The notes under the pieces: model-generated
Databases searched by the model: none
What the model saw: the letters and a program-made list of their open reading frames with translations, nothing else
What the model was told of the DNA's origin: nothing
Position numbers and translations under genes: made by a program
Source of the DNA: Microcoleus sp. bin38.metabat.b11b12b14.051
GTDB taxonomy: Bacteria > Cyanobacteriota > Cyanobacteriia > Cyanobacteriales > Microcoleaceae
DNA length: 64,000 bases
Direction of reading: 5' to 3'
Assembly (NCBI RefSeq): GCF_013299165.1
Contig: NZ_JAAFKD010000007.1
Location: 1 to 64,000 of the forward strand
In this document: positions 5,679 through 27,236 of the stretch, in pieces
How positions within the stretch are numbered: position 1 is the stretch's first letter
How the letters are laid out: every line of letters begins with the position of its first letter

Positions 5679-5743
5679 GTTAAGCAAGCTGCTTCTTTTT
5701 GCAGCAAATTGCATTTGTGGCTTGCACGTAGCAGGCGTTTGAT

Positions 5744-5785
5744 AGATCGCTTTTTTGGCATTCGTGCCTGCAAGCGATCTTTTTA
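5744..5785 (+). terminator. Rho-independent terminator of apcF
   Basis: AGATCGCTT pairs with AAGCGATCT, with an inner GGCA-TTCG-TGCC hairpin, and is followed by TTTTT. It ends about 100 bp after the apcF stop codon. Confidence 0.75.
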
Positions 5786-5790
5786 ATGGC

Positions 5791-5988
5791 TTAAAAGTCG
5801 CCGACGCATCCCCAAACCACGCATTTGTCGAGGGGACATTTGGTTTGGCGCCGATCGATTTGCTCGCTGGTTGTTGCTTCTACTTCGCCATTGGGATAAA
5901 CAATGTGGATGATGTTACCGCTGATGAAGGCTAAGGGATTTTCTTGACAAATGCTCTGATTTCTGATCGGAAAGTTAGTGGTTTTCAT
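5791..5988 (-). CDS. Small hypothetical protein with Cys-rich end
   Basis: The 65-residue product is not recognised. It contains the strand-like stretch GNIIHIVYPNGEVEA and then a C-terminal CPLDKCVVWGCVGDF with three cysteines spaced like a small metal-binding or redox motif. There is no signal peptide. It is convergent with apcF and shares the short intergenic hairpin region with it. The unusual residue pattern makes a chance reading frame less likely, but there is no operon partner. No function can be given. Confidence 0.5.
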   Translation of the reverse strand: MKTTNFPIRNQSICQENPLAFISGNIIHIVYPNGEVEATTSEQIDRRQTKCPLDKCVVWGCVGDF

Positions 5989-6388
5989 GCTCGATCGCCC
6001 TGATTGTGTTTGTAGCGCATTTCCCTGTACTTACATAATCCGCTACTTGCCAAATTTTTTATGTGATTCTACTAATGTTTATCTGTGATCCGACTACACG
6101 CAAAAAGCGATCTCTGTCACATCAGGCGAAAGTTGTTTCAAAAAAAGAATACAACCGCAGCCAAGAGCCAAACCCCGCCCGCCATCAGCCATTCGTCAAT
6201 CGAAAATGGCAAATCCTTTCAGGTGGGGGCGCGAGCCTCGCAGCTTTAGAAAACAGGGAAAAAATCGCGGCGGGCGATCGGCGGTGCTGCTGGGAAAACC
6301 AAAATAATCGCCAAAAATCTGCTATCGGATTTTTGCGTAAGTGATAATCTGGTACAGTCGTTAACCGTATCCGTACAGATTAAAAACC

Positions 6389-19118: not shown

Positions 19119-19190
19119 TGGGCGATGTAGGATTTGAACCTACGGCATCCTGCGTGTAAAGCAGGCGCTCTACCACTGAGCTAATCGCCC
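19119..19190 (-). tRNA. trnV-UAC: tRNA-Val(UAC)
   Basis: The minus strand folds into a full cloverleaf: acceptor arms GGGCGAT and ATCGCCC, D arm TAGCTCAGTGGTAGAGC, anticodon stem CCTGC/GCAGG with loop TTTACAC (anticodon TAC) and T arm with GGTTCAAATCC. No CCA is encoded: the discriminator A is followed by other sequence. It reads GUN valine codons. No intron is seen. Confidence 0.97.
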
Positions 19191-19858: not shown

Positions 19859-20686
19859 ATGTCTAATTCCCAAAGTCGATCGCTCGTAGCACTCGAAAAC
19901 CTAATAGAAGTTGTAGCTAAATTGCGATCGCCAGACGGCGGATGTCCTTGGGATTTAGCCCAAACTCCCCAAACTCTGATTCCTCACATCATTGAAGAAG
20001 CCTATGAAACCGCCGACGCGATTCGCAAAGGAGACAAAAGTGCGATCGTTGAAGAATTGGGCGACTTGCTATTACAGGTAATTTTGCAAGCACAAATTGC
20101 CAGCGAATCAGAACAATTTAGCATCGCCGAAATCGCTGCGGGGATTACCGAAAAACTGATTCGCCGCCATCCCCACGTCTTCGGGGATGCGGAGATTAAC
20201 AGCGTGGATGAAGTGAACGAAAACTGGGAAAAAATTAAAGCAGCAGAAAAAGGCATAACTGCGGAGAACCCAGCAACTTTAGCCTCAAAAATGAGCCGTT
20301 ATGCGAGCACTTTGCCGCCCATCGCCGCCGCCGCGAAAATCTCTCGAAAAGCCGCGGAGGTGAGTTTTGATTGGGACAGTGTAGACGGTGTTTGGGATAA
20401 GTTTCATGAAGAAATGGCCGAATTTGAACACGCTCTCAAACACGAGGATCGGGCGGCGCAGGAGTCCGAGTTGGGGGATATTATGTTTGTGTTGGTTCAA
20501 TTAGCTCGCTGGTACGATTTAGATGCGTCGGCTGCTTTGCAGGGAACGAGCGATCGCTTTGTACAGCGGTTTGCTAAAGTTGAGGCTGCGTGCGATCGAC
20601 CTTTATCCGATTATCCGCCCGAAGAGTTAGAGGCTTTGTGGCAAAAAGCTAAGGCTTTACTAGCGAAGCAAAAAGGCGATGCTTAA
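19859..20686 (+). CDS. mazG: Nucleoside triphosphate pyrophosphohydrolase MazG
   Basis: The 275-residue enzyme hydrolyses (d)NTPs to NMP and pyrophosphate and is thought to cleanse abnormal nucleotides. Its first domain has RSPDGGCPWDLAQTPQTL followed by the metal-binding E-E-x2-E helix (HIIEEAYETADAI) and the VEELGDLLLQVILQAQIA helix; a second MazG domain begins near residue 160 (KAAEVSFDWDSVDGVWDKFHEEMAEF) and also carries EExxE. The length fits full-length two-domain MazG. The DUF2227 gene is immediately upstream. Confidence 0.93.
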   Translation: MSNSQSRSLVALENLIEVVAKLRSPDGGCPWDLAQTPQTLIPHIIEEAYETADAIRKGDKSAIVEELGDLLLQVILQAQIASESEQFSIAEIAAGITEKLIRRHPHVFGDAEINSVDEVNENWEKIKAAEKGITAENPATLASKMSRYASTLPPIAAAAKISRKAAEVSFDWDSVDGVWDKFHEEMAEFEHALKHEDRAAQESELGDIMFVLVQLARWYDLDASAALQGTSDRFVQRFAKVEAACDRPLSDYPPEELEALWQKAKALLAKQKGDA

Positions 20687-20809: not shown

Positions 20810-21211
20810 CTACTCATAGAGCTGCGCGTCGTTGTACGGCGGATGTTCGCAGGCGATGTAAAGGGCGTTTGTCGGTTCGAGGGGTTGATTTGTCACAGGA
20901 TCGATCGGCTTGAGGACAAAGCATAACAGAGAGAGCGATCGCCAATCCAAGCTTTCTAACTTCCCTCTTTCGTAGCGGCTGACAGTCGCATTACTGATAC
21001 CGACATCTTTCGGTACAGGTTCTCCGGCTGTCCGAAACAAAGCCGCCTCATATTCTTTTGTCACCATTTCAGTTTCAATAATTGACCAACCTCGAAGCTC
21101 TCTACCTGCTTTCAGAAGCTTTCCCAGTCTACCGCGTCCCGTATCGCTAAATCGCACAGGACGCAGCTTTTCCTGCTCGACTACAGCCTTAAAGTCAAGA
21201 AATCCCGGCAT
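20810..21211 (-). CDS. XRE-like regulator, copy 1
   Basis: The 133-residue protein has an N-terminal VRFSDTGRGRLGKLLKAGRE segment followed by GWSIIETEMVTKEYEAALFR and a DVGISNATVSRYERGKLESLDWRSL helix-turn-helix-like stretch. It ends in a conserved tail PIDPVTNQPLEPTNALYIACEH. Copies 2 and 3 (21342-21767, 22912-23316) share the tail almost identically at DNA level. It is likely a DNA-binding regulator or antitoxin-like protein; no toxin-like partner is recognised. Copies 1 and 2 form a minus-strand pair next to the divergent small gene at 21933. Confidence 0.72.
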   Translation of the reverse strand: MPGFLDFKAVVEQEKLRPVRFSDTGRGRLGKLLKAGRELRGWSIIETEMVTKEYEAALFRTAGEPVPKDVGISNATVSRYERGKLESLDWRSLSLLCFVLKPIDPVTNQPLEPTNALYIACEHPPYNDAQLYE

Positions 21212-21341
21212 TTTACAGTCCTATAGGTCATAAACTAAAAGTCACATAAAAACTAACCGAAGATCCAAGTTTAGGAGTTAGAGGCTATGTAGCAGTAAGC
21301 TAAAGCTTCAATTGCTAAGCAAAAGGGCGGGACAAAGCAAC

Positions 21342-21767
21342 TTAAGAGTCGGTAATCTCTTCGTAAAGCTTCGCATCGTTGTACGGCGGGTGTTCGCAAG
21401 CGATGTAAAGGGCGTTTGTCGGTTCGAGGGGTTGATTGGTCACTGGATCGATCGGCTTGAGGACAAAGCATAACAGAGAGAGCGATCGCCAATCTAGATT
21501 ATCCAACTTCCCGCGTTCGTAACGGTTGACTGTGGCGGCACTGATACCGACATCTTTGGGTACAGGTTGATTTGTCGCGATGAAAAGCGCCTCTTCGTAC
21601 CCCCTTGTTTTGAACTGCGTTTCGCTAACAGACCAACCTTTTGTATGTCTTGCAGCCTTTAACATCTTACCCAAACGCATCCGCCCCGTCTCCGTGAAGC
21701 GAACGGGACGCAATTCCTGCCGGTTATCTACCACAGCGTTGTTAGAGAGTGCTGACATTTTTTCCAC
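21342..21767 (-). CDS. XRE-like regulator, copy 2
   Basis: This 141-residue paralogue reads RPVRFTETGRMRLGKMLKAAR, then GWSVSETQFKTRGYEEALFIA and DVGISAATVNRYERGKLDNLDWRS, ending in the same NQPLEPTNALYIACEH tail plus ITDS. It is closer to copy 3 than to copy 1. The 130-bp gap to copy 1 has no gene. It lies 165 bp from the divergent small gene at 21933, so a shared, self-regulated promoter is likely (inference). Confidence 0.74.
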   Translation of the reverse strand: MEKMSALSNNAVVDNRQELRPVRFTETGRMRLGKMLKAARHTKGWSVSETQFKTRGYEEALFIATNQPVPKDVGISAATVNRYERGKLDNLDWRSLSLLCFVLKPIDPVTNQPLEPTNALYIACEHPPYNDAKLYEEITDS

Positions 21768-21932
21768 CTAGGTTAACTCTCAAACTAGCACAGCATCAAT
21801 GATTGAGGGTTGTACGAGCAATATCTGAGTTTAAATTAACTTTTATTTCATAAGTGAGATAAGAATCTGAGATAGAGTAATATGTAATTGAGTCTAAACA
21901 GAACTTGCATCTCAATCCCTGAGTATACAGCC

Positions 21933-22313
21933 ATGACAGCACTATTTCGCCGTATCATGCCCTCGAAAAAACTCCGTATCACCGCGCGATCGATCGCCCA
22001 ATTCCTGAAAATGGGTCAAAATCTGATTAAGCGGGTGGAGTGCTGGGCTTGCGTAGTGTTCGTGCACCATCACAAAGGCGGACAATTTATCTCGTACCGC
22101 AGGCTGGAAGAATGGCAAAATGCAATCGCCCATCAAATCCAAAGTTGCTCAACCCTATCGCAACTCTCGCAGCTCAAAACATCAATTCTGTACGACAGCC
22201 GGAAATTCAAAAAACAATATCTCCCAAAAACCCTTGACTTATTAAATCAAATGTGCATTGATAGACAAGATATTTTAGAAATCTGGGAAAGCTCAAACAG
22301 CATTGCTTCCTAG
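21933..22313 (+). CDS. Small basic possible HTH protein, copy A
   Basis: The 126-residue product starts MTALFRRIMPSKKLRITAR. Residues about 20-45 (SIAQFLKMGQNLIKRVECWA) look like a helix-turn-helix or winged-helix recognition element, followed by a conserved GGQFISYRRLEEWQNAIAHQIQ helix and a C-terminal DSRKFKKQYL/QMCIDRQDILEIWE part. It is closely related to the 127-residue copy B at 23845-24228. No family is recognised. In both cassettes it is divergent from XRE-like genes. The ATG at 21933 was chosen because it matches the copy B start; a longer frame begins at 21888. Confidence 0.72.
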   Translation: MTALFRRIMPSKKLRITARSIAQFLKMGQNLIKRVECWACVVFVHHHKGGQFISYRRLEEWQNAIAHQIQSCSTLSQLSQLKTSILYDSRKFKKQYLPKTLDLLNQMCIDRQDILEIWESSNSIAS

Positions 22314-22911
22314 CAGAAACTCAGCAAAGTTGCTGGGGTTGCTTTCATAGGGGAATATCGGTATCATTTCTCAAAATTTAGAACTAGCCTTCGGGGTTTC
22401 GGCGGTCGTAAAAGAAATACGGTAAGTGGGAAACTCAGCGACTTTAGTCCTGAGAGGGAAACGACCAGGCGGTTTCAACCGCGTTGAATCTTTCCATTAC
22501 CGCCTTGGAACTGGTTAATTCGGTGTGCTGTTGTGTTGCACTTTCAACGGGACAGTTACCATTTCAAATCTTCCAGTCCTGTACGCATAATGGTTGCCTT
22601 TGTTGGGCTCCCTTGCGGGGTAATGTTCGCTTGTCGGTCAATGTTATAGGGGCTTGTGAGGCCAGCAGCACTGTCTCAGTGACTTTAAGACTGTTTAACT
22701 ACTGGCGATAGAGCGGAAAACTAGCGTCGCATTCTCCGGTATCGTGACCCGAATAACGTAGACCTCGAAAGTCTTAGGCTGGTCAGAATAGCTTACTCGA
22801 TTACTCTTGCAAGCGAGGGTGTCTTTAGACCTGAGTTCCTGACTTAATACTTGCATTGAGCAACACCGCCAAAGCTGTAATTTCTCAACAATAAAGGCGG
22901 TCAGTATTAGT
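22314..22911. other. Long non-coding stretch between cassettes
   Basis: No gene is supported. The first part carries an IS200/IS605-like hairpin with a GCGGTTTCAACCGC palindrome (22434-22482). The remainder is rich in short complementary segments and looks structured; an untranslated RNA or IS remnant is possible. Reading frames here have no family features. Confidence 0.55.
22434..22482 (+). mobile_element. Orphan IS200/IS605-like end hairpin
   Basis: CTCAG (22434-22438) pairs with CTGAG (22450-22454) around GACTTTAGTC, in the context GGGAAACTCAG...CTGAGAGGGAAAC. GCGGTTTCAACCGC follows 27 bases after the CTTTAG core, versus 26 bases in the copy at 343-394. No transposase is adjacent. It suggests a remnant or non-autonomous element separating the two XRE cassettes. 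Confidence 0.42.
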
Positions 22912-23316
22912 CTACTCCTCGTAAAGCTGCGCGTCGTTGTATGGCGGATGTTCGCAGGCGATGTAAAGGGCGTTTGTGGGTTCGAGGGGTTGATTTGTTA
23001 TGGGATCGATCGGCTTGAGGACAAAGCATAACAGAGAGAGCGATCGCCAATCTAGATTATCCAACTTCCCGCGTTCGTAACGGTTGACTGTCGCAGCACT
23101 AATACCCACATCTCTAGGTACGGGTTGATTTGTCGCCGTGAACAGCGCTTCTTCATAGCCCTTTGTTTTGAACTCTGTTTCGCTAACAGACCAACCAGTT
23201 TCCCGTCTTGCTACTTTCAAAATCTTGCCCAAACGCATCGGTCCCGTCTCAGTGAAGCGAACGGGACGCAATTCCTGCCGGTTATCTACCACAGTCTTGT
23301 TAGAGAGTCCTGACAT
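22912..23316 (-). CDS. XRE-like regulator, copy 3
   Basis: The 134-residue protein begins MSGLSNKTVVDNRQELRPVR, continues FTETGPMRLGKILKVARRETGWS, and carries the same HTH-like DVGISAATVNRYERGKLDNL and NALYIACEHPPYNDAQ tail as copies 1 and 2. DNA identity with copy 2 is very high over the C-terminal half, which points to a recent duplication or gene conversion. It follows copy 4 with a 7-bp gap and is probably cotranscribed with it. Start chosen at 23316 by similarity to copy 2; a longer frame would overlap copy 4. Confidence 0.74.
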   Translation of the reverse strand: MSGLSNKTVVDNRQELRPVRFTETGPMRLGKILKVARRETGWSVSETEFKTKGYEEALFTATNQPVPRDVGISAATVNRYERGKLDNLDWRSLSLLCFVLKPIDPITNQPLEPTNALYIACEHPPYNDAQLYEE

Positions 23317-23323
23317 TTTACGG

Positions 23324-23704
23324 CTAAGCCTCAACGTTTGGATTCCAAAACTCAGTTCCAATCAACAGCAAGTCTTCCAAAGTCAGCAAACGCTCTTCAA
23401 TCGGGTGAACCGGTTCGAGAACATCGAGAAACAGCCACAAAAGATCCGGTGCTGGCTTGTTGTAATAGCCATTTTCAATTCTCGAAATCCCTGCAATGCT
23501 GACCCCCAAAACTTTCGGCAAAGGCTCTCCTGCTAGAGTATAGAATTGAACCTCATGCTGCTTGGTCTGTTCGCTCAATTCGTGAACGCTCCAGCCCCTA
23601 GCTTCCCGCCACGATCGCAAAAATTTACCCAACCGCCGTAGCCCGGTGTCACTAAATCTTCGTCTCAGGTATTCTTTTTCTCGTTTAGCTTCTGCTACAA
23701 CCAT
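23324..23704 (-). CDS. XRE-like regulator, copy 4 (divergent paralogue)
   Basis: The 126-residue protein has the same layout as the other three (RRFSDTGLRRLGKFLRSWREARGW, then GVSIAGISRIENGYYNKPAP as the HTH-like part) but only weak identity, and a different tail (DLLLIGTEFWNPNVEA). It starts 18 bp from a pair of tandem 21-bp repeats and is divergent from the small gene at 23845. It probably leads a two-gene minus-strand unit with copy 3. A role as self-regulating repressor is inferred from the layout. Confidence 0.72.
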   Translation of the reverse strand: MVVAEAKREKEYLRRRFSDTGLRRLGKFLRSWREARGWSVHELSEQTKQHEVQFYTLAGEPLPKVLGVSIAGISRIENGYYNKPAPDLLWLFLDVLEPVHPIEERLLTLEDLLLIGTEFWNPNVEA

Positions 23705-23721
23705 TAGTCATCCCCTATCTG

Positions 23722-23763
23722 CATAAAGCTACGCTATCACGCCATAAAGCTAAGGTATCACGC
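23722..23763. promoter_or_regulatory. Tandem 21-bp operator-like repeats
   Basis: Two adjacent 21-bp units (23722-23742 and 23743-23763) share CATAAAGCTA, then one variable base, G, one variable base and TATCACGC; 19 of 21 positions are identical. A spacing of 21 bp is two helical turns, which places both on one DNA face. They lie in the intergenic region between divergent copy 4 and copy B, 18 bp from the start of copy 4, as expected for an operator. Confidence 0.65.
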
Positions 23764-23844
23764 CAGACTTTTTAGTTTTATATTTTAAGTTGCAAACTTA
23801 AGATGCTGTGTTACAATGTTGGAACAGGGTAGTAAATAAAAACC

Positions 23845-24228
23845 ATGACACCATTATTTCGGCGCATCCAACCATCTAAAAAACTCCGCATCACCGTGAG
23901 GTCGATCGCCCAAATGCTGAAAATCAGCCAAAATCTAATTAAGCGAGTCGAATCTTGGGCTAACGTGGTGTTTGTGCATCGGCTCGACAAAGGCGGACAA
24001 TTTATCTCCTACCGCAGGCTGGAAGAATGGCAAAACGCGATCGCCCATCAAATTCAAACTTCCCCCACCCTCTCGGAACTCTCGCAACTGACAACATCCA
24101 TTCGCCACGACAGCCGGAAATTCAAGAAACAATATCTCCAACAAACACTTGACTTTTTAAATCAAATGTGCATTGAAAGACAAGACACTCTCGAAATCTG
24201 GGAAAGCTTAAACAGCCTTGCTTCCTAG
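23845..24228 (+). CDS. Small basic possible HTH protein, copy B
   Basis: This 127-residue product (MTPLFRRIQPSKKLRITVRS) parallels copy A at 21933-22313 residue for residue, including SIAQMLKISQNLIKRVESWA, GGQFISYRRLEEWQNAIAHQIQ and the QMCIERQDTLEIWES end. A conserved helix-turn-helix-like N-terminal half and basic charge suggest nucleic-acid binding; I know no matching family. It is divergent from XRE copy 4, with the tandem 21-bp repeats between the two starts. Conservation of both copies suggests they are functional. Confidence 0.74.
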   Translation: MTPLFRRIQPSKKLRITVRSIAQMLKISQNLIKRVESWANVVFVHRLDKGGQFISYRRLEEWQNAIAHQIQTSPTLSELSQLTTSIRHDSRKFKKQYLQQTLDFLNQMCIERQDTLEIWESLNSLAS

Positions 24229-26921: not shown

Positions 26922-27236
26922 ATGACATCAGCTTTAATTTATCCTCATATCGAGAAAGTAGCGGGTCAACCCGCACGGTTGCAACGGATACCGCGCGTGC
27001 GGGTTGCTCAGATTGTCATGGATTATCTAGCTTACGGTTGGTCAGTGGAGGAAATATGCCGCCAGCATCCTTATTTGATGCAGTCAGAGGCTCATGCAGC
27101 GATGGCTTATTACTTCGACTTTCAAGCAGAAATTGATCGGGAAATTCGGATGGAATGGGAGCAGGTACAACAGGAAAACTCTTTGCTTTCGCGTTCACCA
27201 TTTTTCGTGAGAATGCGAGCTAAGGGGTTGTTATAA
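26922..27236 (+). CDS. DUF433-family protein, probable antitoxin
   Basis: The 104-residue product begins MTSALIYPHIEKVAGQPARL and contains RVRVAQIVMDYLAYGWSVEEICRQHPYLMQSEAHAAMAYY, the core of DUF433 proteins, which are small helical partners of PIN-like DUF5615 proteins (family knowledge). Its stop codon is immediately followed by the GTG of the DUF5615 gene, so the two form one transcript. A TATAAT sequence lies about 40 bp upstream of the start. It probably binds its partner or the promoter. Confidence 0.8.
   Translation: MTSALIYPHIEKVAGQPARLQRIPRVRVAQIVMDYLAYGWSVEEICRQHPYLMQSEAHAAMAYYFDFQAEIDREIRMEWEQVQQENSLLSRSPFFVRMRAKGLL

Follow-up and report, generated by a model that had tools for sequence, protein, structure and literature searches.

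Divergent gene pairs encoding an XRE regulator and a small basic protein in Microcoleus and other filamentous cyanobacteria

What kind of system is formed by genes of predicted XRE-type regulators that are repeatedly set opposite a gene of a small basic protein? This question is raised by positions 20810-24228 of a 64,000-nucleotide stretch of Microcoleus sp. bin38.metabat.b11b12b14.051 (contig NZ_JAAFKD010000007.1, positions 1 to 64,000; hereafter the window), where four XRE genes (X1–X4, minus strand) are accompanied by two genes of small basic proteins (S1 and S2, plus strand). Back-to-back XRE/S gene pairs are carried by many filamentous cyanobacteria. No published description of the X–S pair was found in the literature searched, which was partial and limited to open-licence sources.

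Organization and history of the locus

The gene calls agree with the layout described in a sequence-only reading of this DNA, i.e. two cassettes, each with XRE genes on the minus strand and a divergent gene of a 126-127-aa basic protein on the plus strand. The features of the locus are as follows:

20810..21211, minus strand: X1, predicted XRE-type regulator of 133 aa (HTH_26 E 5e-4, just below the cut-off)
21275..21329, plus strand: 55-bp copy of the 3′ end of mazG (82% identity to the original at 20624-20678)
21342..21758, minus strand: X2, predicted XRE-type regulator of 138 aa, ATG at 21758 (the ORF reaches a GTG at 21767); divergent to S1
21759..21932: putative shared divergent promoter region of X2/S1
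21933..22313, plus strand: S1, small basic protein of 126 aa (pI 9.9) with the motif FISYRRLEEW
22408..22843, minus strand: 436-bp insertion with a HEARO RNA (RF02033 at 22620-22843) exactly at its end
22912..23316, minus strand: X3, predicted XRE-type regulator of 134 aa, ATG at 23316
23324..23704, minus strand: X4, predicted divergent XRE paralogue of 126 aa (HTH_3 E 4e-8); divergent to S2
23705..23844: putative shared divergent promoter region of X4/S2, with a promoter-like site for S2 at 23790-23817
23845..24228, plus strand: S2, small basic protein of 127 aa (pI 10.2)

X4 is located 7 bp upstream of X3, and the two genes are probably co-transcribed. XRE copies 1-3, singled out earlier, are indeed alike, but the total is four, X4 being an old paralogue (~36% aa identity). 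In a Pfam scan X4 matched HTH_3 with 33.5 bits (cut-off 23), while X1-X3 fell slightly short of the HTH_26 cut-off (20.7-21.5 vs 22 bits). Profile-profile comparison linked the X profile to a generic XRE profile (E 9e-13). The AF2 model of X3 (pLDDT 86.5) has an XRE-like helical fold, and a Foldseek search with the X model returned ClgR, C.BclI and SinR with a probability of 1.0, although at E values of 0.02-0.2. Both sequence and predicted fold therefore point to X1–X4 being HTH regulators of the XRE (Cro/CI) type.

The 3′ DNA of X1-X3 had been described as nearly identical, a sign of recent duplication or gene conversion. It is similar, but at 77-88% identity over 300 nt. Between X1 and X2/X3, most synonymous sites of the first half differ, and dS amounts to ~0.5-1.0 per site there but to 0.17-0.35 in codons 81-120, a drop in keeping with gene conversion at the 3′ end. 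Recent duplication was rejected, since dS between the cassettes (0.37 for X2-X3 and 0.56 for S1-S2) is as great as that between species. The 55-bp mazG copy beside X2 is a remnant of the tandem duplication from which X1 and X2 arose. The two-cassette layout was also found in L035 and L045, both of which share the window sequence between the cassettes, and is thus common to other species.

The cassettes are separated by the HEARO insertion, which lies outside the pair. The omegaRNA (minus strand; 130 bits vs a cut-off of 83) forms one end of the insertion, in which no IscB/IsrB ORF was found, and L035 and L045 contain the empty site. A related piece (73%) is present in L045 (8303-8532).

Among related records named Microcoleus, Tychonema, Lyngbya and Oscillatoriales, the gene order of the genus is DUF2227-mazG-X(one to three)-S-apc-trmA, or comprises two such cassettes. 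Genomes devoid of X and S have mazG and an adjoining stretch without either gene, except for an S fragment in G275. No integrase, phage or ICE genes were found beside the locus, whose flanks consist of DUF2227, mazG, apc and trmA. Across the genus, S has a median dN/dS of 0.21 and X one of 0.11, which indicates that both genes are under constraint, i.e. purifying selection; given these low values and the presence of homologues at the corresponding site of other species, the locus is not a product of chance. The window also contains a tRNA gene (19119-19190, minus strand; Rfam, 78 bits) and, 3′ of trmA, a gene of a DUF433-family protein (26922-27236, plus strand); this family is among the listed cyanobacterial antitoxins (PMC4963859).

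Pairing of the XRE and S genes

A co-occurrence survey was performed on 30 sampled congeners. X and S were both present in 22 and neither was intact in the remaining 8, which clearly refutes the view that the two families rarely co-occur; the probability of this joint presence and absence by chance is 1.7e-7 if the genomes are treated as independent, i.e. uncorrected for shared descent. Within the genus no intact S was found without X, save at contig ends. Outside the genus, divergent X–S pairs were identified in further lineages, namely in G091, G166 and G179 and, at ~30% identity, in G121 and G151.

In a partner survey covering 35 S loci (mutually <70% identical) and using its own XRE profile, an XRE ORF was located upstream of S at 27 of these non-redundant loci, in 25 cases divergently and within 1 kb; in the flanking DNA covered, no XRE gene occurred past 2.25 kb. 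The independent HTH_3 model of Pfam identified a divergent gene within 1 kb of S at each of the six loci of the host genome (S1 and S2 being taken as one locus), in a genome with just 34 HTH_3 matches in 7.07 Mb. In five genomes such a gene was present at 16 of 31 S loci, vs 0.07 expected.

The pairing is conserved with partners drawn from several XRE subfamilies: (i) the X type of 117-137 aa, (ii) HTH_26-like types of 70-79 aa, (iii) types of 81-91 aa, several of which end in LPDDF, (iv) a prfA-linked type of 120 aa and (v) DUF7662-HTH fusions, encoded upstream of S on the same strand. A co-directional upstream XRE gene is confined to L076 and L081-L083; the window and most relatives show the divergent arrangement. 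An array of six tandem XRE genes with seven HTH_3 matches was observed in L207 (G000:C30, 3336-6455); several of its members end in IPDDL-like motifs and a helicase-like fragment is located close by.

The prfA-linked type belongs to a sister branch, surveyed in 25 matching genomes of the Nostocaceae-like family f33 and of this genus. A divergent XRE gene is situated beside S in all 25, and prfA adjoins the pair in 23 (22 in the stretches read and the host genome in a longer stretch); in G323 and G167, prfA is outside the stretch read. The location of this branch next to prfA in two families makes it unlikely to be mere clutter.

Some copies of S are broken. In G220 (second copy), G319 and G279 the gene is interrupted near codon 20 by a shared, stop-containing insert of ~23 bp (TAGGCGTAAGCCGGGGCGTAGCC; ~7190-7215 of L045, and the equal codon in L050 and L024), while the divergent X remains open. 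A different, in-frame insert of 21 bp was noted in the S gene of L049, and both inserts look like small dispersed repeats. In L051 (~5700-5990), an insertion cuts the S gene short; an OrfB/TnpB-like C-terminus (GTNHDRDINAAKNIL) is encoded at the end of this insertion.

The S protein family

S1 and S2 are paralogues, as had been supposed, with 81% aa and 79-87% DNA identity. They form a single branch within a broad family of cyanobacterial proteins, whose genes are usually set back to back with an XRE gene. With a profile built from diverse members (A1), relatives were detected in 36 of 386 genomes of the phylum (E<=1e-6), including five more loci in the host genome, which has seven S members overall. 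The proteins are basic (pI ~10) and their hallmark is the motif F[IV]SYR-x2-L-x2-W. In S2 numbering, the invariant residues of A1 are S55, Y56, W62 and L79, and P10, A22, L25, I32, W38, V44, H45, F53, R57, L59 and Y97 are nearly so.

The earlier statement that S matches no known family was borne out: no convincing match was obtained in Pfam, NCBIfam, PADLOC or PHROGs, the family being absent from these libraries, and no known toxin or antitoxin family was among the results of these scans. Candidates such as GntI (E 8e-4, 18.8 bits vs a cut-off of 357) were rejected as chance-level library matches. A sequence search of the PDB yielded nothing. S was absent from the 72,556 plasmid and 50,697 phage records searched, as well as from the viral contigs, the viral scans reaching chiefly close relatives.

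An HTH-like region had also been proposed for S. Similarity to HTH_17 is weak, the model matching 4 of 30 members with a best E of 0.0018 (0.008 in profile-profile comparison), and no clear HTH is visible in the AF2 model of S2, which was predicted from a shallow alignment with modest confidence (pLDDT 71.6) and consists of a helix, three strands and further helices. Foldseek returned generic helical matches and none at E<=0.001; the best fold match (Z 7.3) is to a helical part of PheRS and is restricted to residues 52-127.

No XRE gene was found near the long S forms (187-228 aa) or near several dispersed S copies of G118 and G255. These two genomes, as well as G065, G134 and G148, contain about a dozen dispersed copies each (L052-L066); in several, the repeat unit is ~1 kb long (M + S), with similarity stopping at the end of S. 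In several lineages the XRE gene and S are separated by gene M, which has the same orientation as S; M was noted upstream of S in L052 (5610-6116), L054 (5350-5946) and L064 (5455-5964). Its product contains the conserved sequence WAI.RLLPDA.RYTVARF.NR.DA.DH.RFL.RF.PAAEFE..FD, for which Pfam gives no family over the cut-off.

Possible function and comparison with known systems

The locus is a duplicated form of a widespread cyanobacterial pair, in which, as we consider rather probable, an autoregulated XRE repressor controls the divergent, probably nucleic-acid-binding S. XRE dimers would bind the shared intergenic region and repress both their own genes and the S promoter, until some signal released S from repression. 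Less surely, S might bind nucleic acid through an HTH-like N-terminus, the conserved F[IV]SYR motif and a helical C-terminus, and might serve as a counter-regulator or downstream regulator, targeting nucleic acid or counteracting the XRE protein; the pair would then operate as a CI/Cro-style switch. The tandem XREs, with variable N-terminal and homogenised C-terminal halves, could give mixed dimers.

Inspection of the intergenic regions showed that many copies have a conserved promoter-like sequence (TTGCAA-N16-TACAAT or TAGAAT) ahead of S; the site upstream of S2 (TTGCAA-N16-TACAAT) is conserved in L033, L034, L036 and L038. Regions of the X2/S1 type contain the element TTGCACTTGTGCAA in several homologues, eroded in the window. 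No palindromic operator common to all of the X–S intergenic regions compared was found, which counts against the switch, as do the weak HTH similarity of S and the S genes that have no XRE partner.

It is possible, but in our opinion unlikely, that the pair is a toxin-antitoxin (TA)-like module, with S as the toxin, XRE as antitoxin and autoregulator, and various XREs recruited as partners. The joint gain and loss of X and S, the swapping of partners between XRE subfamilies and the high copy number in some genomes are all consistent with such a module, as are the intact X genes opposite broken S genes in three genomes, which have no reverse counterpart in the genus apart from contig ends. By eye, some copies are also near RM-, HEPN/MNT- or RelE-like genes. 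However, a regulatory pair is favoured over a classical TA operon because the genes are divergent, several XREs may accompany one S, no copy of S was found on the plasmids and phages searched, and the sister pair is stably kept next to prfA. Type II TA systems are bicistronic operons (PMC10440598). Moreover, partner XREs of 70-74 aa barely exceed the HTH, and S contains no conserved set of polar residues suggestive of an enzyme. The broader proposal, that divergent XREs and the F[IV]SYR family together constitute an uncharacterised class of cyanobacterial TA-like or defence modules, with one effector family repeatedly re-paired with XRE subfamilies, is equally tentative.

Still less probable is a domesticated control region of a phage or integrative element, in which a CI/ImmR-like XRE would face an excisionase- or Cro-like protein, the element itself being lost. 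In control regions of the CI/Cro type, the XRE repressor is transcribed away from a small DNA-binding protein, with a common promoter region. The X–S layout is like these, and the weak HTH_17 similarity of S would suit such an origin, but the lack of integrase and phage genes beside the locus, the absence of S from the phages and viral contigs searched and the stable synteny in the genus argue against it. Neutral clutter, i.e. adjacent small regulators with no functional link, would accommodate the S genes without an XRE, but is hardly credible in view of an association ~200-fold over chance that recurs with various XRE subfamilies and at separate sites in the genomes.

With its S family and strong divergent-XRE rule, the pair is a system, regulatory or effector, that lends itself directly to tests in cyanobacteria of ecological importance. 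The swapping of XRE partners provides a natural experiment for finding out which of its parts need to recognise one another or the shared DNA.

In layout, the X–S pair is similar to known XRE-controlled switches. In the control regions of phages and ICEs (lambda CI/Cro and immR of ICEBs1), as in the X–S pair, the XRE gene points away from that of a small, probably DNA-binding protein; unlike these, the X–S pair is chromosomal, with genus-wide synteny and no integrase or phage genes, its S falls outside the families searched and its XRE genes are often in tandem. Type II TA systems with Xre antitoxins (HigBA, HipBA and RES-Xre) differ in that X–S is divergent, was not found on plasmids and has an S without a known toxin family, but they too are small two-gene XRE units with partner change and many copies per genome. 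The X–S cassette lacks a restriction or methylase gene, in contrast to RM systems, the controller proteins of which (such as C.BclI and C.Esp1396I) are small XRE autoregulators and among the nearest folds to X.
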